A DNA stretch of 64,000 nucleotides. It comes from an uncultured Kordiimonas sp. (GTDB lineage: Bacteria; Pseudomonadota; Alphaproteobacteria; Sphingomonadales; Kordiimonadaceae). Positions 4,137-49,832 of the stretch are shown here, piece after piece. The first letter of the stretch is position 1. Every line of letters begins with the position of its first letter. Below the pieces are notes generated by a model. It had not been told where the DNA came from. It saw only the letters and a list, made by a program, of their open reading frames with translations, and did not search any database. Location: contig CANNDZ010000001.1 of the NCBI GenBank assembly GCA_947503575.1, positions 2,232,001 through 2,296,000 of the forward strand. Reading direction: 5' to 3'. A program made the translations under genes and the position numbers.

Positions 4137-5012
4137 TTACATTAATGCGGTTAAAGGCGCTAATACTGATACAGCAAGAGCAACGCCACTTCCTGGCGCG
4201 ATATCATTGAGTGCACTAATCACGGGGCTTTTATTCATTTTCAACACTACATCCCGTTGTGCTTCGCATTCAACGGATGCAATTTTAACATGGCCAACAG
4301 CCATCGGCTCAATGCGCCAAAGCAAGTAAGCAGCGGCAATTGCTGACCAGCCCTCCAATAGCACCGGCAATCTGCGGCTGCGAGCTGCGATTATTGCCCC
4401 CACCATTGCTGCAATCTCCCGTCCGGCATGGGGGATCATCAGCTCAATCAACGCCTTGGCTGACAGAGTGCTTAGGGCATCAGCCTCATTATATTCATTG
4501 TCTATTGCTTGAATGAAGCGCTGAGCCGCATCACCAGATCCTGGCGCCAAAGCACTTAGACCCAACAAATCGCCGCCCGCTGCGGTAGCTTCCATACCAA
4601 AAGCACAAGCTGCCATACACTCACGTTCCGACCATGTGTTCGGGACATGTGGCATACTTGGAGCTAACTCTAGTACCCTCAAACCCAAGCCCCTGTCTTT
4701 ACACAAGTGATTCAATTTGGTTTCACCGCGACCAGCATGATCCGAAAACGCAATAGCTTCGTCCAACTTTCCTGCCCCTGCATAACTGCTGACAAAAATG
4801 CACAAATGGCTTTCTTTAACAGCAGGCGCAGGTTTTCCCTGCCAACTTGCAAGCCACGCCAAATGTTGCCCAAAGCTGGGTTGCGCTGCCCTTTCATCAA
4901 CAGGAAATTCAGCAGTAACAGCTTTCGCACTCGCTACGTCAGCAGCTGGAAGCTGTGAAAGAAGTTCACACAAATCGTCGAATGGGGTTCTTTTTGACAC
5001 TATTGTCAGCAT
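4137..5012 (-). CDS. Divergent CobT-like (nicotinate-nucleotide:DMB phosphoribosyltransferase fold) protein lacking the catalytic Glu
   Basis: 291 aa, shorter than usual CobT (about 340-350). The recognisable region is HAGREIAAMVGAIIAARSRRLPVLLEGWSAIAAAYL (about residues 190-230; quoted in parts: GREIAAMVGAIIAAR, LPVLLEGW), which parallels the CobT block GGFDIAALAGA...PVVVDGF, and the tail APGSGVALAV, which parallels the CobT end GEGSGAALA. In characterised CobT the Glu of GEGSG is the catalytic base; here that position is Pro273. The GIGNTT-type phosphate block is also altered (AAGGDLLGL). So the fold is likely CobT, but lower-ligand activation activity is doubtful. No other cobalamin gene is nearby. 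It sits between PEP-CTERM surface genes. Function unknown. Confidence 0.65.
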   Translation of the reverse strand: MLTIVSKRTPFDDLCELLSQLPAADVASAKAVTAEFPVDERAAQPSFGQHLAWLASWQGKPAPAVKESHLCIFVSSYAGAGKLDEAIAFSDHAGRGETKLNHLCKDRGLGLRVLELAPSMPHVPNTWSERECMAACAFGMEATAAGGDLLGLSALAPGSGDAAQRFIQAIDNEYNEADALSTLSAKALIELMIPHAGREIAAMVGAIIAARSRRLPVLLEGWSAIAAAYLLWRIEPMAVGHVKIASVECEAQRDVVLKMNKSPVISALNDIAPGSGVALAVSVLAPLTALM

Positions 5013-30214: not shown

Positions 30215-30230
30215 TGGCACACCAATTGCT
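30215..30230 (+). promoter_or_regulatory. Sigma-54 promoter of the first flagellin gene
   Basis: TGGCACACCAATTGCT matches the TGGCAC-N5-TTGCW consensus in full. It is 60 bp before the flagellin start. Upstream the reversed motif pair AGGCAAAAG and GGCAATTTG (minus-strand sense, about 30137-30160) resembles the ftr-like elements of the other promoters. Confidence 0.9.
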
Positions 30231-30289
30231 AACATAGGGACAAGCCGGTTAACCGGTGCATTTAGAAACGTCATAACAGGAGAGGTTAA

Positions 30290-31120
30290 ATGGCCTTTTC
30301 AATTAATGTAAACGCCAGTGCACTGAGTGCATTGCGGAACTTGAATCAAACAAGTGCAGACCTGCAGGATACTCAAACCAAGATCAATACTGGTTTGAGA
30401 ATTTCATCTGCAAAAGATAATGCTGCTGTCTTTTCAATCGCGCAAAAGTTGCGTAGTGATCTTCGTGGTTTGTCTGCTGTTACACAGTCTCTGGATCGTG
30501 GCATATCCACAGTGGATGTTGCCCTCGCCGCAGCAAGTGCTGTCTCGGATCTACTTCTTGAGATGAAAGAGAAGGCTGTTGCTGCCGCAGATCAGGGCTT
30601 GGACTCCATCAGTCGTAATGCGCTAAGCCAGGACTTTGAATCCCTGCGCGACCAAATCACGTCTGTTGTCAGTAACGCAGAATTCAACGGCACCAATCTG
30701 ATCGATGGCGGTGACGATGCTATTGTGGCGATCACGAACGCCGACGCAACGCAAACGCTAACTGTCGAGCACCAGCAACTCACGCTGAGCAGCTCCAATA
30801 TACCGATCACGTCAAACCAAACAATTTCCACTCAGGATTCAGCTTCTGCGGCGGTGACAGACATCACCAATGCCATTAACAATCTGAACTCTGCGCTGAC
30901 CAAGTTGGGTTCCGGTTCCACCGCGCTTGAACAAAGCCGCAACTTTACCGGCCAGCTACAGGATGTGATTGAGGTGGGGATCGGTAACCTCGTCGATGCC
31001 GACCTCGCGAAAGAAAGTGCCAACTTACAGGCCTTGCAGGTCAAGCAACAGCTTGGCATTCAGGCACTGTCCATCGCGAACCAGTCGCCGCAGTCAATCC
31101 TCTCGCTCTTCCAGGGCTAG
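30290..31120 (+). CDS. Flagellin 1
   Basis: 276 aa. Conserved D0/D1 N-terminus (NVNASALSALRNLNQTSADL, TQTKINTGLRISSAKDNAAV) and C-terminus (EVGIGNLVDADLAKESANLQ, QALQVKQQLGIQALSIANQS) with almost no variable D2/D3 domain between them, a short flagellin as in Caulobacter. The most diverged of the four flagellins: it is split from the tandem three by the glycosylation operon. The leader is different too: it contains a CCGGTTAACCGG palindrome (30245-30256) in place of A-loop hairpins. AGGAGAGG ribosome site; a terminator follows. Confidence 0.96.
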   Translation: MAFSINVNASALSALRNLNQTSADLQDTQTKINTGLRISSAKDNAAVFSIAQKLRSDLRGLSAVTQSLDRGISTVDVALAAASAVSDLLLEMKEKAVAAADQGLDSISRNALSQDFESLRDQITSVVSNAEFNGTNLIDGGDDAIVAITNADATQTLTVEHQQLTLSSSNIPITSNQTISTQDSASAAVTDITNAINNLNSALTKLGSGSTALEQSRNFTGQLQDVIEVGIGNLVDADLAKESANLQALQVKQQLGIQALSIANQSPQSILSLFQG

Positions 31121-42747: not shown

Positions 42748-44484
42748 TTATCCGTCTATAAGGTGAGCAGTGCGGGCTGCGACGCGGGTCATAATATCTT
42801 GCCAGTCAGCCACACCATCTGCGCTGAAAAGTTCAGCCTGCTTGGCAAAAGGGACATGGTTTTCATGGCCAAAGCACCACCAGGGTGGCGCACCCGACAT
42901 CAGTAACGTTGGCGTACCGGCAGACATGGAAAACATTCCCGGCGCAGAACAAGATGACACAACCAGGCTGCAATTACAGGCAATCGCTAAATTAGCTTCA
43001 ATATCCGCTTTCAAATCAACGTCAGCAAAATTGCAAACGTCCACACCGTATTGATCTTTTATCGCAGCAAGCTCTTCGGTCACATCGCCGTATTGCAGGT
43101 TAACGAAGTCAACTTTATCCGCCAGCGCCATCAAGGGGCCCAGCTTATCAATGCCCGCGTACAAATACGCACGCTCTGATGCTACGATCCCGCTGCGCCA
43201 TGCCAGCCCGACTTTGGGTTTATCACCAATGGATGACAGCCTCATTTTAAATTCTAAAGCTCGGGTCGGATCGGCCACAAGATAGCCGTCTGGATGCGGT
43301 TGGATAGCTTCAGCGGTGCGCCAGTCGAATTTGGGTGAGCTGGCGACTGGCACATAATAGTCTATTTGTGCTTCGCCGTTTTTCATCAGCTTCTCAATGC
43401 CAGGGAACACACGATAACGATACCCTGAAACCACACGGTCGAGGTATCCGCCAACAACAGCATCAGGAAAACGCCGCTGGTATATACTGATCAATCGAGG
43501 GTCGCACCCAATATAAAGCTTGGCAGTTTTTTCGTATAGATACGGCAGATAGCTGCCCCACATGACTTCGTCACCGATACCCTGCTCTGCGGTAACAAAC
43601 AGGCTTTTGCCGTCAATATCCTCACCCTGCCACAACGGTAGCTTGTGCGTATAATGCTGCGTCTGGTTAGATTTGCGGCGGCTATCAAGCCTAAATTCAT
43701 AATGTTCCCATGCCTCTTCAAGGCGACCTTTTAAGAAAAGGAACTGAGCCGCACCGACCCTTGGCTCTGGCGAATTGGGATCTGACTTAATAGATTGAAG
43801 GGCAAGCTCCAGCGCCCTATCGATATCGTTACGGCGCGTGAAGGATATAGAATAGTTGCTGATAATTCTGGCATCATTGGGACTAAGCTTCAGGGCTTCT
43901 TCAAAAAACACATCAGCAGCATCAACGCCGTCTCGCTCCCGTACTTGCGTTGCCAGCACATTCCATAGGTCTGCATTTGTTGGGAAGTGCGGCAGAACAT
44001 TCTGAAGCATGCTGATACTGACATCATATTTGCGCAGGCCAGAATACGCTGTTGCAAGGTTGACATAGTTACCTGGATTGGTTGGCTCCAGAATTATGAG
44101 TTGTTCGCCCAGTTTGATGGCGATCTCATAAAAGCCCATCTCAAGGGCGAGACGCAGAATAATGCCGATAAGTTCCGCTGTTGGCTCGTGCACCTCAAGC
44201 GCACGCTGCAATACGGAGATAGCATGTTCCCGAACACCCAGCTGGACAAGCGCATGAGCCAGCACCGTTAGAACGGATAAATCCTGCGGCATGGCCTCCC
44301 AGGCAATCAGCAAATGCTTAACGGCGTCAGCCCATTCGCGTTGCTCTGCGTGTTTTTGACCAAGTTTCAGGGATTTCCTGATTTCACTGAGGCTAAGGCC
44401 TGTGTCGACCAAGCCCAGCTTTTCAACTTTACTGCGCTGAGCTTTTTGAGGTGCCTTGCGTGTTTTTTTCCTGCCTGATGCCAC
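42748..44484 (-). CDS. flmG: FlmG-type TPR flagellin glycosyltransferase
   Basis: 578 aa from GTG 44484 (codes VASGRKK), which has GGGAGG seven bases before it; the longer frame to 44601 starts with a hydrophobic stretch and a poor site. A basic N-terminus is followed by TPRs (about residues 35-270: LIAWEAMPQDLSVLTVLAHA, NYVNLATAYSGLRKYDVSIS, DARIISNYSISFTRRNDIDR), then a GT41/GT9-like catalytic half with VTAEQGIGDEVMWGSYLP and GLAWRSG. In Caulobacter FlmG binds flagellins by its TPRs and adds pseudaminic acid. First gene of the ten-gene sugar operon. Confidence 0.85.
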   Translation of the reverse strand: MASGRKKTRKAPQKAQRSKVEKLGLVDTGLSLSEIRKSLKLGQKHAEQREWADAVKHLLIAWEAMPQDLSVLTVLAHALVQLGVREHAISVLQRALEVHEPTAELIGIILRLALEMGFYEIAIKLGEQLIILEPTNPGNYVNLATAYSGLRKYDVSISMLQNVLPHFPTNADLWNVLATQVRERDGVDAADVFFEEALKLSPNDARIISNYSISFTRRNDIDRALELALQSIKSDPNSPEPRVGAAQFLFLKGRLEEAWEHYEFRLDSRRKSNQTQHYTHKLPLWQGEDIDGKSLFVTAEQGIGDEVMWGSYLPYLYEKTAKLYIGCDPRLISIYQRRFPDAVVGGYLDRVVSGYRYRVFPGIEKLMKNGEAQIDYYVPVASSPKFDWRTAEAIQPHPDGYLVADPTRALEFKMRLSSIGDKPKVGLAWRSGIVASERAYLYAGIDKLGPLMALADKVDFVNLQYGDVTEELAAIKDQYGVDVCNFADVDLKADIEANLAIACNCSLVVSSCSAPGMFSMSAGTPTLLMSGAPPWWCFGHENHVPFAKQAELFSADGVADWQDIMTRVAARTAHLIDG

Positions 44485-44733
44485 TTCTGCCTCCCGCGCG
44501 CCTGCTCTCGCTACGTCAATTACAAACGAGATAATCGAGTTACCGCAGCATAGTGCAAAGCCGATGCCAACAAAAATTCTGGCACTATTTCTGCAAAACA
44601 CCTTATGATATAAGCAGAATTTAAAATACGCTATAAGCGAATATTAACATTTCAGTACTAGATTTGGCTTGTCGTCAGTGCTCATTCAGTGGCAACGGCA
44701 TAATTTACCGGGCCAAACGCTTGGGAGGACTTT

Positions 44734-45132
44734 ATGGCGCTGAAGCTATCATTAAAGCCGGACGAACGCCTGGTTATAAATGGCGCGGTTATTGCAAACG
44801 TTGATCGTCGGACGACACTAATCGTCCACAATAAGGCTTCGATCTTAAGAGAAAAGGACATTTTGCAGGAAGAAGATGTGAATTCACCAGCTAAACGGAT
44901 CTACTTTCCGATCATGCTGATGTACATGGACCAAGGCAATACGAACAAATACTATGAAGAGTTTGTTTTGCGCATGACCGAATTCATGAGTGCGATATCA
45001 AGCCCAGAGGCAATTGAGAATTGTGTTCAAATCAGCCGCGACGTAATGGGCAAAAACTATTACAAAGCACTGATGACCTGCAAAAAACTGATCGATTTTG
45101 AAACAAGCCGCATTGGAGACACTGGAAACTAA
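44734..45132 (+). CDS. flbT: Flagellin regulator FlbT
   Basis: 132 aa. Starts MALKLSLKPDERLVINGAVI and continues TTLIVHNKASILREKDILQE and AKRIYFPIMLMYMD, the FlbT signature. In Caulobacter FlbT binds the 5' untranslated region of flagellin mRNA and lowers its stability and translation; in Brucella it is an activator. Good ribosome site (GGGAGGAC). Here it lies directly upstream of three flagellins whose leaders carry hairpins, the likely targets. The 250-bp gap to flmG is a divergent promoter region. Confidence 0.94.
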   Translation: MALKLSLKPDERLVINGAVIANVDRRTTLIVHNKASILREKDILQEEDVNSPAKRIYFPIMLMYMDQGNTNKYYEEFVLRMTEFMSAISSPEAIENCVQISRDVMGKNYYKALMTCKKLIDFETSRIGDTGN

Positions 45133-45150
45133 GGTTAAACGGGAATTTTA

Positions 45151-45573
45151 ATGTCGTATCAAGCATATCAAAAGGCCCAGACTTCAGTAGAGACGCCTAG
45201 CCAAGTCGAATATCGTTTATTCGTCCAGGTTACGAATGCGTTGATCGACGTGAAAGACAAACCCGTTACTGACCCGGATACAATTGCGGCCCTTGATTGG
45301 AACCGGCGTATGTGGTCGGTGTTTTCCAGTGACTGCGGCGCCAAAGGCAATCAGCTTCCTGACGGGCTGCGCGCAGGTGTTATTTCCCTTTCAATATGGG
45401 TATCCAAACACTCGTCTCTTGTTATGAGAGGCCAGGAAAGTATTGATAGTCTCATCAATATCAATAAAACGATCATGGAAGGCTTGGCTGATCAGGCCAA
45501 GCTGCAGGCAAGCGCACACCCATCAAATGATCCAGCGGCTCAGGCACCCAAACCTGTTAACGCCACTTTATAA
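45151..45573 (+). CDS. flaF: Flagellin biosynthesis/secretion regulator FlaF
   Basis: 140 aa, all helical: SYQAYQKAQTSVETPSQVEY, RLFVQVTNALIDVKDKP, ALDWNRRMWSVFSSDCGAKG and GVISLSIWVSKHSSLVMRG. This is the FlaF family, which works with FlbT; in Caulobacter FlaF is required for flagellin synthesis and acts as a flagellin secretion chaperone. Eighteen bp after flbT, so the two are cotranscribed. Confidence 0.94.
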   Translation: MSYQAYQKAQTSVETPSQVEYRLFVQVTNALIDVKDKPVTDPDTIAALDWNRRMWSVFSSDCGAKGNQLPDGLRAGVISLSIWVSKHSSLVMRGQESIDSLININKTIMEGLADQAKLQASAHPSNDPAAQAPKPVNATL

Positions 45574-45736
45574 CGCCTATCCGCTTTATCTATTAGTATC
45601 TGACAGGTTCCACCACTGCTGTGGTCTGTTTTTGAGTGCATAACCATGCTCTTTGGCAGGCGTGCATCATTTTGACCGGACAATAGACCCACGCAAGACC
45701 GTCAAAAGGCATCCGTAGGTAAATTTTGCATACCAT

Positions 45737-45894
45737 CGGCAAATTTTTCCGCCCGTTTCGCAGCGACACTCGGCAAAATTAACCTCCTAGATGCGGCAAG
45801 CTTTACCCACCAATGGCTTCTTGGAAACGGCGCATGCAAAATTTTTAATAAAATTCAATGGATTAACGCGCTAGCGCCAATACCCGGCAAAATT
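45737..45894 (+). promoter_or_regulatory. Cluster of CGGCAAAATT elements upstream of flagellin 2
   Basis: CGGCAAATTT at 45737, CGGCAAAATT at 45771, CGGCAAGCTT at 45794 and CGGCAAAATT at 45885, the last abutting the -24 box. They lie in the 407-bp gap between flaF and flagellin 2, which holds no gene. They look like ftr/FlbD binding sites, which in Caulobacter lie both upstream of and overlapping sigma-54 promoters. Confidence 0.55.
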
Positions 45895-45909
45895 GGCACG
45901 GGTCCTGCT
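45894..45909 (+). promoter_or_regulatory. Sigma-54 promoter of flagellin 2
   Basis: TGGCACGGGTCCTGCT: perfect -24 box, GG-N10-GC spacing kept. A start near 45920 would begin the transcript at the first leader hairpin. Confidence 0.88.
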
Positions 45910-45920
45910 GAGAGGGTTTC

Positions 45921-45974
45921 GGAAGCAAAAGGCCTCCGGGAGCAAAAAGCTCTGAACAACTCTCAGAATGGAGA
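45921..45974 (+). promoter_or_regulatory. Flagellin 2 mRNA leader with A-loop hairpins and masked Shine-Dalgarno
   Basis: Hairpin 1: GGAAGC-AAAAG-GCCTCC (45921-45937, one A-C mismatch). Hairpin 2: GAGC-AAAAA-GCTC (45940-45952). Hairpin 3: TCTC-AGAATG-GAGA (45961-45974), in which the GGAGA Shine-Dalgarno pairs. The same order is found in the flagellin 4 leader and partly in flagellin 3. Likely FlbT or another post-transcriptional regulator target. Confidence 0.65.
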
Positions 45975-45980
45975 TACATA

Positions 45981-46808
45981 ATGGCGTTTTCAGTAAACAC
46001 CAATGCAGGTGCGTTTGCAGCCCTGCAAAACCTGAATAAAACTACCTCTCAACTGAACACAATCCAAACTCAGATCAACACGGGCTTGAAGGTTGCATCG
46101 GCAAAGGACGATGCGGCGACGTTCGCTATTGCGCAAACTCTGCGCGGTGATGTTGCAGGCCTGAACGCAGTTAAGGGATCGCTTGATCGGTCTCAGTCCA
46201 CCATTGATGTGGCGATTGCCGCCGGCGAGGCGGTTTCTGACCTTCTTATCGAACTGAAGGAAAAAGCTGTTGCCGCCAAAGACGCCGGTTTGGATACTGC
46301 CAGCCGGAACTCGCTCAATAATGACTTTGGCCAGCTTCGTGACCAGATCACCTCGATCGTGGCGAACGCTGAGTTCAATGGCACCAATGCCGTAGAAAGC
46401 GGCGGTGACGCTATTGTTGCCATCACCAACGACACAGGCAGCAACAGCATCACGATTGCAGCTCAAGACCTGTCTTTGGGCGGTGCAAACGTTACCATTA
46501 CGGCTACCCAGAGCATTGGCACGGCGGCGGCAGCATCTTCGGCAGTAGATAATATTGAATCGTCTATTGCGAACGTGAACACAGCCCTTTCCGAGCTTGG
46601 TTCAGGCGCATCCCGTCTGGATTTGCAAAGAACCTTTGTGAACCAACTGTCGGACGCAATTGAAGTGGGTGTTGGTAATCTGGTTGATGCTGACCTGGCA
46701 CAAGCAAGTGCGGACTTGCAGTCCCTGCAGGTGAAACAGCAGCTTGGCCTTCAGGCGCTATCCATCGCCAACCAGGCCCCAAGTACAGTCTTGTCCCTAT
46801 TCGGGTAA
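45981..46808 (+). CDS. Flagellin 2
   Basis: 275 aa short flagellin with conserved ends: NTNAGAFAALQNLNKTTSQL, TQINTGLKVASAKDDAATFA; C-terminal LQSLQVKQQLGLQALSIANQ. The D1 part is almost identical to that of flagellin 4; the middle (residues about 155-185) differs (SITIAAQDLSLGGANVTITA). Many Ser/Thr in the central region are possible glycosylation sites for the adjacent FlmG system. A terminator follows. Confidence 0.96.
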   Translation: MAFSVNTNAGAFAALQNLNKTTSQLNTIQTQINTGLKVASAKDDAATFAIAQTLRGDVAGLNAVKGSLDRSQSTIDVAIAAGEAVSDLLIELKEKAVAAKDAGLDTASRNSLNNDFGQLRDQITSIVANAEFNGTNAVESGGDAIVAITNDTGSNSITIAAQDLSLGGANVTITATQSIGTAAAASSAVDNIESSIANVNTALSELGSGASRLDLQRTFVNQLSDAIEVGVGNLVDADLAQASADLQSLQVKQQLGLQALSIANQAPSTVLSLFG

Positions 46809-46833
46809 GTGGTTCCTTAGGAATCGCTACTTT

Positions 46834-46859
46834 AAGGGCCCTTCGGGGCCCTTTTTTTT
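46834..46859 (+). terminator. Rho-independent terminator of flagellin 2
   Basis: GGGCCC-TTCG-GGGCCC hairpin flanked by AA and T8; a UUCG tetraloop terminator. Starts 26 bp after the flagellin 2 stop. Confidence 0.95.
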
Positions 46860-47026
46860 GGCTAGTTATATGGGCCTGCAGGTATTGCGCATTTGTGGGT
46901 CACGACCGCAAACACTACTCGGCAGATTTCTCCAACTCACGGGTACTATTTGCCCTGCCAGGTATCCTATACTTGCCCACTCATCCTAGTTTCAATATTT
47001 TATCCATATTTTACAATATCTTACGG

Positions 47027-47042
47027 TGGCACACTCCTTGCG
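47027..47042 (+). promoter_or_regulatory. Sigma-54 promoter of flagellin 3
   Basis: TGGCACACTCCTTGCG matches the TGGCAC-N5-TTGC consensus. CGGCAGATTT at 46920 and reversed GGGCAAATAG and GGGCAAGTAT motifs at about 46945-46977 resemble the upstream elements of the other flagellin genes. Confidence 0.9.
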
Positions 47043-47055
47043 CTTATGCGGTCGA

Positions 47056-47092
47056 GAGCAGAAAGGCTCATTAATATATTCTCAAAAGGAGA
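47056..47092 (+). promoter_or_regulatory. Flagellin 3 mRNA leader hairpins
   Basis: GAGC-AGAAAG-GCTC (47056-47069) and TCTC-AAAAG-GAGA (47080-47092); the second again includes the GGAGA Shine-Dalgarno. Only two hairpins, compared with three in the leaders of flagellins 2 and 4. Confidence 0.6.
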
Positions 47093-47098
47093 CGACAC

Positions 47099-47926
47099 AT
47101 GACTTTTTCAGTAAATACAAACGCCGCAGCATTGGACGCCCTTCAAAACTTGAACCGGACATCTGCGAAGTTGGAAAAAGTGCAAACTGCAATTAACACG
47201 GGGCTCAGTGTGGCTTCATCGAAAGACAACAGTGCTATTTTTGCCATTGCGCAAACCTTGCGGGCAGACGTGTCCGGCATTCGTGCCGCCACCAGCTCCA
47301 TTGATCGCGCCTTGTCTTCGATTGATGTCGCAATTGCCGCAGGGGAAGCTGTGTCGGATCTTCTGATCGAAATGAAAGAAAAGGCAGTAGCCGCCAAAGA
47401 TGGCGGACTTGATACAGCCAGCCGGACGTCTTTGAACAACGACTTTACGCAATTAAGAGATCAAATTACCTCTATTGTACAAAATGCTGAGTTCAATGGC
47501 ACAAATGTCGTGGAAAATGGGGGCGATGCTATTGTCGCCATTACCAATGATGATGGCAGCAACACCATTACGGTGGGTGCTCAGGATCTGTCATTGGGCG
47601 GCGGCAATGTTACGATTACCGGTACGCAATCGATTGGAACCGCCGCAGCAGCATCTGCCGCTGTTGCAAATGTCGAATCCTCAATCGCAAATGTGAACAC
47701 ATCTTTGTCACGTTTGGGGTCGGGTGCAAACCGTCTTGAATTGCAAGCCCAGTTTGTATCGCGCCTTCGGGACGCGATCGAAGTGGGTATTGGTAACCTT
47801 GTTGATGCCGATTTGGCGAAAGAGTCTGCAAACCTGCAGGCAATTCAGGTGAAGCAGCAGCTGGGCCTTCAGGCTTTGTCTATTGCAAACCAGGCGCCTC
47901 AGGCTGTTACAGGGCTATTCCAGTAA
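47099..47926 (+). CDS. Flagellin 3
   Basis: 275 aa. N-terminus NTNAAALDALQNLNRTSAKL and TAINTGLSVASSKDNSAIFA; C-terminus DLAKESANLQAIQVKQQLGL. It differs from its neighbours over the first 90 residues and in LSRLGSGANRLELQAQFVSR, but its centre (NTITVGAQDLSLGGGNVTIT) matches flagellin 4. Own sigma-54 promoter; a hairpin follows the gene. Confidence 0.96.
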   Translation: MTFSVNTNAAALDALQNLNRTSAKLEKVQTAINTGLSVASSKDNSAIFAIAQTLRADVSGIRAATSSIDRALSSIDVAIAAGEAVSDLLIEMKEKAVAAKDGGLDTASRTSLNNDFTQLRDQITSIVQNAEFNGTNVVENGGDAIVAITNDDGSNTITVGAQDLSLGGGNVTITGTQSIGTAAAASAAVANVESSIANVNTSLSRLGSGANRLELQAQFVSRLRDAIEVGIGNLVDADLAKESANLQAIQVKQQLGLQALSIANQAPQAVTGLFQ

Positions 47927-47936
47927 ACTTGAGCCA

Positions 47937-47954
47937 GGTGGGCTGCGGCCCACC
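47937..47954 (+). terminator. Hairpin after flagellin 3, possible weak terminator
   Basis: GGTGGGC-TGCG-GCCCACC, 7-bp perfect stem 10 bp past the stop, but with no T tract. It may act as a 3' stabiliser or a Rho-dependent stop. Confidence 0.55.
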
Positions 47955-48018
47955 GGGCAATCTTTACCTACTTACCGGCAAAAACTAGGCGCAATCTGCC
48001 TGCCCGGCATATATTGCC
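47954..48018 (+). promoter_or_regulatory. CGGCAA-type elements upstream of flagellin 4
   Basis: CGGGCAATCTTTACC at 47954, CGGCAAAAACTAGGC at 47976 and CCGGCATATATTGCC at 48004, about 90-150 bp before the sigma-54 promoter, the distance expected for an enhancer. Confidence 0.5.
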
Positions 48019-48106
48019 TATAGCTGCACTCCCCAGCCTATCTGCGCCCGGTCTTAATTCCTTATATTTTTCATATATTTAGAAGACAGGCACATTCTGC
48101 CGGTTT

Positions 48107-48122
48107 TGGCATCGATATTGCA
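48107..48122 (+). promoter_or_regulatory. Sigma-54 promoter of flagellin 4
   Basis: TGGCATCGATATTGCA: GG-N10-GC with a full TTGCA -12 box. The transcript would begin near 48133, directly at the first leader hairpin. Confidence 0.88.
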
Positions 48123-48133
48123 TTTTTCGTTTC

Positions 48134-48185
48134 GGGACAAAAAGTCCCTGCGAGCAAAAAGCTCGACATAAACTCCAAAAAGGAG
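48134..48185 (+). promoter_or_regulatory. Flagellin 4 mRNA leader: three hairpins, each with an AAAAA loop
   Basis: GGGAC-AAAAA-GTCCC (48134-48148), CGAGC-AAAAA-GCTCG (48151-48165) and CTCC-AAAAA-GGAG (48173-48185). The last stem contains the Shine-Dalgarno GGAG eight bases before the ATG. Loops are identical, stems differ in sequence, so structure is what is kept. Confidence 0.75.
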
Positions 48186-48192
48186 AAGCAAA

Positions 48193-49020
48193 ATGGCTTT
48201 CTCGGTAAACACTAATGCGGGTGCTTTTGCAGCCCTGCAAAACCTTAACAAAACCACCAGTGACCTGGGTACGGTGCAAAATCGCATCAACACAGGCTTA
48301 AAAGTTGCATCGGCAAAAGACGATGCGGCGACGTTCGCTATTGCACAAACCCTTCGCGGGGATGTTGCAGGCCTGAACGCGGTTAAGTCTTCACTTGACC
48401 GGTCCCAATCTACCATCGATGTGGCAATTGCCGCAGGCGAAGCAGTTTCTGACCTTCTTATTGAACTGAAGGAAAAAGCTGTTGCCGCCAAAGATGCCGG
48501 TTTGGATACTGCCAGCCGGAACTCCCTCAACAATGACTTTGGCCAGCTTCGTGACCAGATCACTTCGATCGTATCGAACGCTGAGTTCAATGGTACAAAT
48601 GTTGTGGAAAGCAGCGGTGACGCTATCGTCGCCATCACCAACGACACCGGCAGCAACACCATTACGGTGGGCGCGCAGGACTTGTCACTTGGTGGCGGTA
48701 ATGTGACCCTGACTGCGACACAAGGTATTGCTTCAGCAGCTGCAGCGTCAGCCGCCGTGGACAATATCGAATCGTCTATTTCTAATGTGAATACAGCCCT
48801 TTCTGAGCTGGGTTCAGGCGCATCCCGTCTGGATCTGCAAAGAACCTTTGTGAACCAACTATCTGATGCCCTTGAAGTGGGTATTGGTAACCTGGTTGAC
48901 GCTGACCTGGCTAGTGAATCTGCGAACTTGCAGGCACTGCAGGTGCGGCAGCAGCTTGGTTTACAGGCATTGTCGATTGCCAACCAGGCTCCGTCGACAG
49001 TTCTCGGGCTCTTCCGATAA
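48193..49020 (+). CDS. Flagellin 4
   Basis: 275 aa. The first 95 residues nearly equal flagellin 2 (LKVASAKDDAATFAIAQTLR) and the C-terminal third also does (SELGSGASRLDLQRTFVNQL), while the middle NTITVGAQDLSLGGGNVT is that of flagellin 3, which suggests gene conversion between copies. Last of the tandem flagellins. Confidence 0.96.
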   Translation: MAFSVNTNAGAFAALQNLNKTTSDLGTVQNRINTGLKVASAKDDAATFAIAQTLRGDVAGLNAVKSSLDRSQSTIDVAIAAGEAVSDLLIELKEKAVAAKDAGLDTASRNSLNNDFGQLRDQITSIVSNAEFNGTNVVESSGDAIVAITNDTGSNTITVGAQDLSLGGGNVTLTATQGIASAAAASAAVDNIESSISNVNTALSELGSGASRLDLQRTFVNQLSDALEVGIGNLVDADLASESANLQALQVRQQLGLQALSIANQAPSTVLGLFR

Positions 49021-49028
49021 GAACGACT

Positions 49029-49057
49029 CTGAGTGAATCCCTCGTGGGTTCACTCAG
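49029..49057 (+). terminator. Hairpin after flagellin 4, possible terminator
   Basis: CTGAGTGAA(T)CCC-TCGT-GGGTTCACTCAG, 12 paired bases with a single bulge; no T run behind it. It separates flagellin 4 from flaG only incompletely, so read-through into flaG is possible. Confidence 0.55.
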
Positions 49058-49170
49058 ACCTTGATTATTGGAATATAATAGTGAGCGCGCTTCGACAGTC
49101 ATGAGTAACCATCCATAGTGAGGATGGAAAAGTATGAAGCAGCACTGAAAATCACGTTCGGAGTGGAACG

Positions 49171-49584
49171 ATGACTGAAATTGGTAGCAGCGGTAATGGT
49201 GCTCAGGTGGTAAACCTGAAAACTAATTCCACGCGTAGCCCAGGGTCAGACAGCGTTGAACGCGGAACGACCCCGGCAGCTACGCCGAAAACAGATGCAA
49301 CAACCCAGCCGATAGGTAATGGTGCTGAGGCCTTGGGGGCCGAAGTAATCAAAGACCCTTTCGAACAGGCAGCGGGGGTTCTGGAAGAATTCATCCCTGA
49401 ATTCGAACAGATACCAAACACTCGTTTGCGCATCGATAAGGACGACGAAACAGGCAGGTTCGTATACTACAGTGTAGACGACGAATCCGGAGAAGTGGTC
49501 AGGCAATTCCCGCCGGAAAACATTCTCAAATTTCTGTCGTATTACAGAGGCTTGGAAGGGTTGTTGCTGGACGATAAAATTTAG
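49171..49584 (+). CDS. flaG: FlaG-family flagellar protein
   Basis: 137 aa. A low-complexity N-terminus (residues 1-60) is followed by the FlaG domain: NTRLRIDKDDETGRFVYYSV, DDESGEVVRQFPPENILKFL. FlaG proteins affect filament length and often follow flagellin genes. Ribosome site GGAGTGG. No sigma-54 promoter seen just upstream, so it is probably read from flagellin 4. Confidence 0.85.
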   Translation: MTEIGSSGNGAQVVNLKTNSTRSPGSDSVERGTTPAATPKTDATTQPIGNGAEALGAEVIKDPFEQAAGVLEEFIPEFEQIPNTRLRIDKDDETGRFVYYSVDDESGEVVRQFPPENILKFLSYYRGLEGLLLDDKI

Positions 49585-49832
49585 GCTGCAAGCCTGAAAC
49601 TTGTAGCCTTTAAACAGGCTGGTACCCTTCGGGTATTGATGCACTTGCTTTGTTCGCCGATCTTGGCACGACGGAGCAAGCTTTTTGCGTTGTCCAAAAG
49701 TAATTGGCATGTGCCCATATTTCTCATGCAGCGGCGATTGCAAGATAGTATTAAATCACTGAAAGTCTGGAAACGTCCAAATATTGCTCTACGTCTGGAC
49801 TAGTTCAAAAACTTTGCAGGAGTATCCCGTTA

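Follow-up and report, generated by a model that had tools for sequence, protein, structure and literature searches.

What is the role of the short A-rich hairpins that stand in front of three tandem flagellin genes in an uncultured Kordiimonas sp.? The stretch of DNA analysed here, called the window, is 64,000 nucleotides (nt) long (contig CANNDZ010000001.1, positions 2,232,001 to 2,296,000), and in it the genes for flagellins 2, 3 and 4 lie in tandem, downstream of flbT and then flaF. Tandem hairpins make up most of each of the three leaders, and the ribosome site lies in the last of them. The leader structure is under selection, with the stems of hairpins 1 and 2 covarying among relatives, and the array is near-specific to flagellin leaders. 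We favour, with fair confidence, the reading that the arrays serve FlbT as operators with several binding sites, and that FlbT is a CsrA-like reader of loops of the form A[A/G]AAN which would clamp the hairpin carrying the Shine-Dalgarno sequence.

Hairpins in the leaders of flagellins 2, 3 and 4

The genes, promoters and hairpins of the window given here lie on the forward (+) strand. The leader of flagellin 4 has three hairpins: hairpin 1 at 48134..48148 (GGGAC-AAAAA-GTCCC), at the predicted 5' end, hairpin 2 at 48152..48164 (GAGC-AAAAA-GCTC) and hairpin 3 at 48173..48185 (CTCC-AAAAA-GGAG), whose 3' arm, GGAG at 48182-48185, is the Shine-Dalgarno sequence. The loops start at 48139, 48156 and 48177, which places them 17 and 21 nt apart. 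Flagellin 2 has the same order, with hairpin 1 at 45921..45937 (GGAAGC-AAAAG-GCCTCC, with one A/C mismatch in the stem), hairpin 2 at 45940..45952 (GAGC-AAAAA-GCTC) and hairpin 3 at 45961..45974 (TCTC-AGAATG-GAGA, or a loop AGAAT with a bulged G), where the Shine-Dalgarno GGAG is at 45970-45973. In both leaders it is the first two hairpins whose stems covary. Flagellin 3 has two hairpins, the first at 47056..47069 (GAGC-AGAAAG-GCTC), beginning 3 nt after the predicted RNA start, and the last at 47080..47092 (TCTC-AAAAG-GAGA), with the Shine-Dalgarno GGAG at 47088-47091.

The original prediction, made from the bare sequence, had placed these hairpins correctly to within one base. The AAAAA loops that it named for flagellin 4 are not universal: AAAAA, AAAAG, AGAAAG and AGAATG all occur in the three leaders, and what they share is an A[A/G]AA core with a C-G closing pair. 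Its claim that the last stem contains the ribosome site is borne out in three of three leaders, GGAG lying in or against the last 3' arm.

A consensus scan finds a sigma-54-like promoter in front of each array, at 45894..45909 for flagellin 2 (TGGCACGGGTCCTGCT; predicted +1 at ~45920), 47027..47042 for flagellin 3 (TGGCACACTCCTTGCG; ~47053) and 48107..48122 for flagellin 4 (TGGCATCGATATTGCA; ~48133). From these predicted starts the leaders are ~61, ~46 and ~60 nt long, respectively. A start at the first hairpin, which had been proposed for flagellins 2 and 4, is predicted for both, and the restriction to those two falls away: in all three leaders alike the RNA is predicted to begin at the first hairpin or up to 3 nt before it.

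Folded from its predicted start, the flagellin 4 leader has an energy z score of -5.3, and none of 200 shuffles is as low; the fold energies of flagellins 2 and 3 are unremarkable (z -1.3 each; 23/200 and 16/200 shuffles fold as well). Hairpins 1 and 2 of this leader are stronger than the last, which is weak by itself, and hairpin 3 is part of neither the minimum-energy fold of flagellin 2 nor the centroid fold of flagellin 4. The masking of the Shine-Dalgarno sequence that had been proposed agrees with the position of that sequence, which may be masked in the cell by a hairpin that is weak alone. When flagellin 2 is folded from 12 nt upstream of its predicted start, a longer pairing involving those upstream bases appears. 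Fold energy by itself was abandoned as proof of the arrays, flagellin 4 alone standing out; because it is convincing for that leader only, the case against chance rests on the leaders of relatives. An Rfam scan of 44000-49800 gave no family above its gathering score, the only match being a sub-threshold one to suhB (expectation value (E) 0.15; 23.4 of 41 bits) at 46807-46866, outside the leader hairpins.

Conservation, covariation and specificity of the array

The flbT regions of 27 family genomes, some of which yielded no flagellin leader, together with the window's own genome gave 73 distinct family leaders. A sigma-54-like site is present in 71, and 68 of those 71 have at least two A-loop hairpins, in two to four copies; the three exceptions, without any A-loop hairpin, precede a protein nearest to flagellin 1. 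The loop C-A[A/G]AAN-G on a stem of at least three pairs occurs in 69/73 leaders. Under a broader rule, A-type loops occur in 70/73 (4.0 expected by shuffling) and GGA-type loops in 2/73 (5.0 expected). Among 200 loops on stems of at least four pairs the commonest are AAAAG (50), AAAAA (44), AGAATG (29) and AAAAT (25), with C-G closure in 168, in a tally that, like the other loop tallies here, counts overlapping readings of one hairpin separately.

The position of the array is as regular as its loops. In 59 of the 68 A-loop leaders the first hairpin begins between 3 nt before and 4 nt after the predicted sigma-54 start. For the other nine the script placed it at +16 to +22; these include the window's flagellin 2, whose first hairpin was passed over because a stem mismatch was disallowed. 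The typical layout is hairpins at ~+1, +16 to +22 and ~+40 in a leader of ~60 nt, and the flagellin-3 type has two hairpins in ~45 nt. Such hairpins are also present in 79 of 142 leaders from named contigs outside the family set, Maricaulales included, where AGAA (34), AAAAC (33) and AAAAT (28) lead among 262 loops. The nearest relatives of flagellin 4 among the named contigs are from Kordiimonas.

Covariation was scored in two alignments. A5 holds 21 flagellin-4-type leaders, picked by ACTCCAAAA in the last 30 nt (21/21 kept), and A6 holds 25 flagellin-2-type leaders, picked by TCTCAGAA in the last 30 nt (25/40 kept, 15 rows being excluded by eye as having another layout, being cut short or containing N). 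Hairpin 3 is thus selected in both alignments, and A6 is selected for how hairpins 1 and 2 are laid out, too. In A5 the share of paired cells is 95.7% and covariation scores 0.279, compared with 0.156 after shuffling and at most 0.10 when the partners are slid; in A6 the score is 0.203, compared with 0.108 and at most 0.08. None of 500 shuffles is as high in either case, so that the covariation in relatives which the original prediction had named as a check is present. Pairs changed on both sides in A5 are matched by 16 of 500 shuffles, and further pair types show no excess (461/500 as high).

The covariation is confined to hairpins 1 and 2, whose loop cores hardly change. The earlier statement that stems vary while pairing is kept is borne out for these two hairpins in two leader types. 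Hairpin 3 hardly varies and so gives no signal either way: it is nearly invariant in the 21 A5 leaders, themselves selected by part of it, and invariant in the 25 A6 rows, themselves selected by its 5' half. Near-constancy is expected if the Shine-Dalgarno sequence must be held, and the hairpin was also among the criteria for selecting rows. Without constraints, RNAalifold recovers all three hairpins in A5 and, in A6, shorter forms of them.

Covariance models built from A5 (R1, flagellin-4 type) and A6 (R2, flagellin-2 type) pick out flagellin leaders from whole genomes. Across the window's own genome, R1 finds its training row flagellin 4 at E 1.2e-13 and the non-training flagellin 2 at E 7e-4, everything else being at E 0.79 or worse; R2 finds flagellin 2 (a training row), flagellin 4 (E 7e-7) and, weakly, flagellin 3 (E 0.22), with the remainder above 7. 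Over 29 family genomes R2 gives 63 matches at E ≤0.05, in 28 genomes; the one without a match, G014, has a completeness of 76% and likewise yielded no FlbT. Of the 63, 52 lie at flagellin starts found by script. Seven more were inspected, leaving aside four of the weakest: by translation five are flagellin leaders, some on other contigs, and two are not. Every one of the 54 family matches with E ≤0.0072 is a flagellin leader; 24 of these are training rows, which match by construction, and the other 30 are not. Across 144 genomes of the class, flagellin leaders of FlbT-positive genomes make up six of the top seven matches (E ≤0.0035), namely the window's own flagellins 2 and 4, G136 twice, G104 and G127. 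The seventh (G043, E 0.0023) is in a genome without flagellin or FlbT, and the next (G133, E 0.0039) is a flagellin leader again, the inspection covering the best eight of the 13 class matches.

FlbT as candidate reader and its likeness to CsrA

The gene flbT lies at 44734..45132, and its product, the predicted reader of the loops, matches PF07378 (E 1.9e-44). Residues 1 to about 45 are predicted to form a CsrA-like five-strand domain and residues 50-131 a helical bundle. The partner gene flaF follows at 45151..45573 (PF07309, E 1.7e-31), which confirms the earlier assignment of flbT-flaF upstream of flagellins 2, 3 and 4, whose open reading frames, all matching PF00669, are at 45981..46808, 47099..47926 and 48193..49020. 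The marks of an FlbT-controlled leader, flbT, flaF and a sigma-54 flagellin promoter, are thus all present in the window.

In Caulobacter, FlbT acts on the 5' untranslated regions (5' UTRs) of flagellin mRNAs (PMC3930126, PMC4347634), as the original prediction had stated; a review gives FlbT no binding motif in the sections covered and lists its mechanism as 'Unresolved' (PMC4347634). In Caulobacter, FlbT also binds the flagellin FljJ, a co-repressor of the other flagellins, and FlaF is the export chaperone (PMC7591256). The Caulobacter crescentus system shares with the present locus flbT-flaF, sigma-54 flagellin genes and 5' UTR control (PMC3930126), as well as one flagellin with a separate role (FljJ, PMC7591256). 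It differs in that the literature covered, which may leave room for an earlier description of a leader hairpin, describes no repeated covarying A-loop array.

Across the class, the loops accompany FlbT. Leaders were obtained from 60 of the 144 genomes: 31 FlbT-positive genomes outside the family gave 61, of which 60 were long enough, 21 CsrA-positive genomes gave 24, and 8 genomes with neither gave 11. One FlbT-positive leader shorter than 60 nt was left out of the loop counts, and one named-contig leader also from the C-A[A/G]AAN-G count. A-loop hairpins are present in 35/60 FlbT-positive leaders (2.8 expected by shuffling), 2/24 CsrA-positive leaders (1.1) and 1/11 with neither (0.4). Counted by genome outside the family, the figures are 25/31 with FlbT and 3/29 without (Fisher p 2.8e-8, kinship ignored). 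GGA-type loops occur in 13/24 CsrA-positive leaders (5.3 expected) and 15/60 FlbT-positive ones (11.7), and the commonest of 52 loops in CsrA-positive leaders are AGGAT (5) and AGGTA (4), followed by AGGAA and four others with two each. Together with the covariation and the near-specificity, this association argues by comparison for the multi-site FlbT target of the original prediction, and the A-rich loops are probably docking sites for FlbT.

The regulators themselves exclude one another. FlbT was found in 50 of the 144 class genomes, CsrA in 30, FliW in 28, FlaF in 51 and flagellin in 91. Among the 91 flagellated genomes FlaF accompanies FlbT in 48/48 and FliW accompanies CsrA in 27/29; FlbT and CsrA occur together in one, FlbT and FliW in none, and 15 have neither FlbT nor CsrA. 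FlbT and CsrA-FliW are mutually exclusive among flagellated genomes. The sole one of the 91 holding both FlbT and CsrA is G100. The window's own genome (G000) has no PF02599 match, and CsrA itself was dropped as a candidate binder of the loops there for that reason.

The N-terminus of the window's FlbT (LKLSLKPDERLVING...NKASILREKD) resembles an alphaproteobacterial CsrA (LYLTRKVGESVVIND...SASVLRREL, from locus L257). Profiles were drawn from three alignments: A1 (38/54 FlbTs of a first set), A3 (29/32 FlbTs with the window's FlbT and 11 from the loci) and A2 (25/30 CsrAs, with four on short loci and one near-duplicate left out). In hhalign, FlbT 3-40 aligns with CsrA 2-45 at P 9e-4 for a narrow FlbT set, and FlbT 3-39 with CsrA 2-44 at P 1.1e-5 for a diverse one. 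The FlbT N-terminus alone gives P 6.5e-6 with a score of 28.5, which none of 300 column shuffles reaches (mean 9.9, maximum 18.9). Controls with reversed profiles or the C-terminal part of FlbT give P 0.02 or worse.

Searched against 19,662 stop-to-stop open reading frames that included 30 CsrAs, the FlbT N-terminal profile places CsrA at ranks 1-5 and in 14 of the 16 best non-FlbT matches, which are individually weak (best E 0.036) and not independent, because CsrAs are related to each other. In the reverse search of the same reading frames with a CsrA model, FlbTs are among the best non-CsrA matches, not first (third, E 7.2). The arginine R44 in strand beta5, which CsrA requires for RNA binding (PMC7652899), aligns with FlbT R39, kept in 40/41 FlbTs, and CsrA L4 aligns with FlbT position 5, which is L, I, V or M. 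AlphaFold2 models FlbT as four or five strands followed by a four-helix bundle, and the N-terminus alone as five strands followed by helical turns of three residues (predicted local distance difference test 88, predicted template modelling score 0.57).

These comparisons suggest that FlbT is a distant CsrA relative reading a slightly different loop. The original prediction had offered a 'CsrA-like protein' as an alternative to FlbT; the profile likeness upholds the resemblance, and the two need not be separate alternatives. No mention of FlbT-CsrA homology was found in the open-licence literature covered, in the parts covered; one paper regards FlaF-FlbT as perhaps an 'analogous system' to CsrA-FliW. 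FlbT falls below the curated cut-off of PF02599 and matches PF07378 instead, and as the profile likeness comes without a structural match, FlbT is termed CsrA-like here and is not placed in PF02599. The bundle of FlbT has only common four-helix matches, including the flagellar export chaperone 1orj (Z 7.0, root-mean-square deviation 2.6, 83 aligned), a match set aside as too weak to build a claim on.

A proposed operator, its alternatives and the remaining leaders

The proposed mechanism is as follows. The operators would lie at the 5' end of flagellin mRNAs transcribed with sigma-54, where each hairpin would display a loop with the core A[A/G]AA, typically C-A[A/G]AAN-G, on a stem that need only pair. 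The N-terminal domain of FlbT would be a divergent CsrA-like five-strand RNA-binding domain, a dimer of which could hold two loops at once. FlbT may anchor on hairpins 1 and 2 and grip the last one, which is weak and has the Shine-Dalgarno sequence as its 3' arm, and the ribosome site would stay closed until flagellin can be exported. The C-terminal bundle and FlaF would supply the sensing of flagellin, as FliW does for CsrA in other bacteria, and flagellin 1, which has no such loops, would escape control and be a candidate FljJ-like escapee. We infer the binding of loops by FlbT, the bridging by a dimer, the direction of the effect and the roles of bundle, FlaF and flagellin 1; as Brucella FlbT has been proposed to be an activator (PMC4347634), the sign of the effect in Kordiimonas in particular has this standing.

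Known CsrA systems give the proposal its outline. CsrA represses by occluding the ribosome site. Many of its targets carry more than one hairpin site, and a dimer anchored on one of them can reach across to a site on the Shine-Dalgarno sequence 10-63 nt away, with an optimum over 18 (PMC7652899). The geometry here is similar; in comparison with CsrA-FliW control of flagellin mRNA (Bacillus hag, Campylobacter flaA), the loop core is A[A/G]AA and not AGGA, the protein carries a helical bundle and FlaF takes the place of FliW. The CsrB repeat is CAGGA(U/A/C)G (PMC7652899), compared with CA[A/G]AANG here. In the control of pslA by RsmA, a loop-bound protein is said to stabilise an otherwise unstable Shine-Dalgarno hairpin (PMC7652899), as proposed for hairpin 3; one loop site is described for pslA, in contrast with two to four A-loops here. 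For the wider evolutionary claim, we lean slightly towards FlbT being an unrecognised branch of the CsrA superfamily, with an added helical bundle, that took over from CsrA-FliW as the flagellin checkpoint in Alphaproteobacteria while the loops changed from AGGAN to A[A/G]AAN, a change that would be legible in the flagellin leaders of the whole class. If FlbT is a CsrA relative, the flagellin checkpoints CsrA-FliW and FlbT-FlaF, so far known separately, would be two forms of a single system, and an evolutionary shift of RNA loop specificity can be traced in protein and targets together. With a defined portable hairpin of 13-17 nt, a loop consensus and a candidate residue, R39, recognition by FlbT is directly testable.

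A number of observations weigh against the favoured reading. In flagellin 4 the first two loops start 17 nt apart, a distance within the bridging range of CsrA and under its optimum. No A-loop hairpin was found in 25/60 FlbT-positive leaders outside the family. The FlbT-negative leaders are few (35), the genomes are related while the statistics ignore kinship, and the FlbT-positive set is skewed to flagellins near flbT, because some of its leaders came from flbT loci. The GGA enrichment with CsrA is mild and by genome not significant (12/21, compared with 10/31 for FlbT-positive genomes, p 0.09). Of the genomes behind the named loci 19/23 have FlbT, the other four being metagenome assemblies (L048, L063, L069 and L074). 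Two of these, L048 (G172; gene at 5001) and L063 (G193; gene at about 204), carry A-loop flagellin leaders with no FlbT found, so that either flbT was missed by possibly incomplete assemblies or the loops exist without FlbT; our confidence is slightly lowered on their account. Emcibacter-type genomes are FlbT-positive in 12 of 14 cases, yet 22 flagellins were seen there without the array. For the CsrA likeness of FlbT, the points on the same side are that R6, present in 25/25 CsrAs, aligns with FlbT position 7, which is L or V in 41/41; that the Foldseek and VIA lists for the full and N-terminal FlbT models have no CsrA among the matches listed; that single-sequence Pfam scans match CsrA in 2/48 FlbT N-termini (best E 0.055, like other weak families); and that no PDB chain matches the FlbT N-terminal profile at E ≤10. 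A PDB search with a single FlbT sequence gave unrelated weak matches only.

The points on R6, the fold lists, the Pfam scans and the PDB profile search speak for a rival in which FlbT would read the loops through an unrelated fold, with a convergent or chance likeness to CsrA and the same regulation. CsrA is an intertwined dimer, and a monomer model of FlbT may for that reason fail to match CsrA structures. The near end-to-end profile alignment that no shuffle equals, the rank of CsrAs in the search of reading frames, the five strands of the N-terminal model and the mutual exclusion with CsrA all speak for relatedness, and we consider an unrelated fold unlikely, if well worth keeping in mind. 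That the loops are A-rich for no particular reason and read by no protein, and that a 5'-terminal stem guards an abundant mRNA from 5'-end-dependent decay, appears improbable. In its favour, flagellin mRNAs are abundant and most family leaders have their first hairpin where the RNA is predicted to begin; this explanation leaves unaccounted for why loops are more conserved than stems, why the ribosome site lies in the last hairpin, why there are two to four copies and why the loops accompany FlbT. We give very little weight to the A-rich loops being distal-face sites for Hfq or seed regions for small RNAs that control flagellin translation. Such control usually acts near the ribosome site, and Hfq binds Poly(A)/ARN stretches (PMC4347634). 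Neither the genome-wide near-specificity to flagellins nor the association with FlbT would be anticipated on this view, and Hfq sites are generally single-stranded runs and not closed pentaloops. Operators read by FlbT remain the reading that we prefer.

Flagellin 1 lies apart from the tandem genes, at 30290..31120, with a sigma-54-like promoter from 30215. Its leader has no A-loop hairpins, as the original prediction had it, and holds a second, different element, a hairpin at 30244..30257 whose loop varies among orthologues and is not of the A-loop kind. Over the leader (30215-30289), orthologues mostly keep the hairpin (GCCGG-TTAA-CCGG here), followed by motifs like AGAAACGTCAT and AGGAGAGGTTAA. 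An escape of flagellin 1 from control is consistent with this different leader hairpin. The window's own genome has an additional flagellin-like gene (C2:346553-346948), whose leader (L005) is without the C-A[A/G]AAN-G loop.

In the Emcibacter-type genomes, 21 of the 22 flagellins are nearest to flagellin 1, and in many a single CAGAATG precedes the ribosome site. Leaders of this type at ten loci (L052, L053, L056, L061, L064, L066, L069, L074, L077 and L093) have in common a hairpin-like arm of the GGGATAC type and, ahead of the ribosome site, TTCAGAATGCAAC; this may be the same signal reduced to one hairpin. At locus L180 (G151, FlbT-positive and without CsrA), one flagellin leader has AGGAT and AGGAA loops and its neighbour has AGAAC and AGAA in the same places, a pair that is possibly a snapshot of a change in the loop code.

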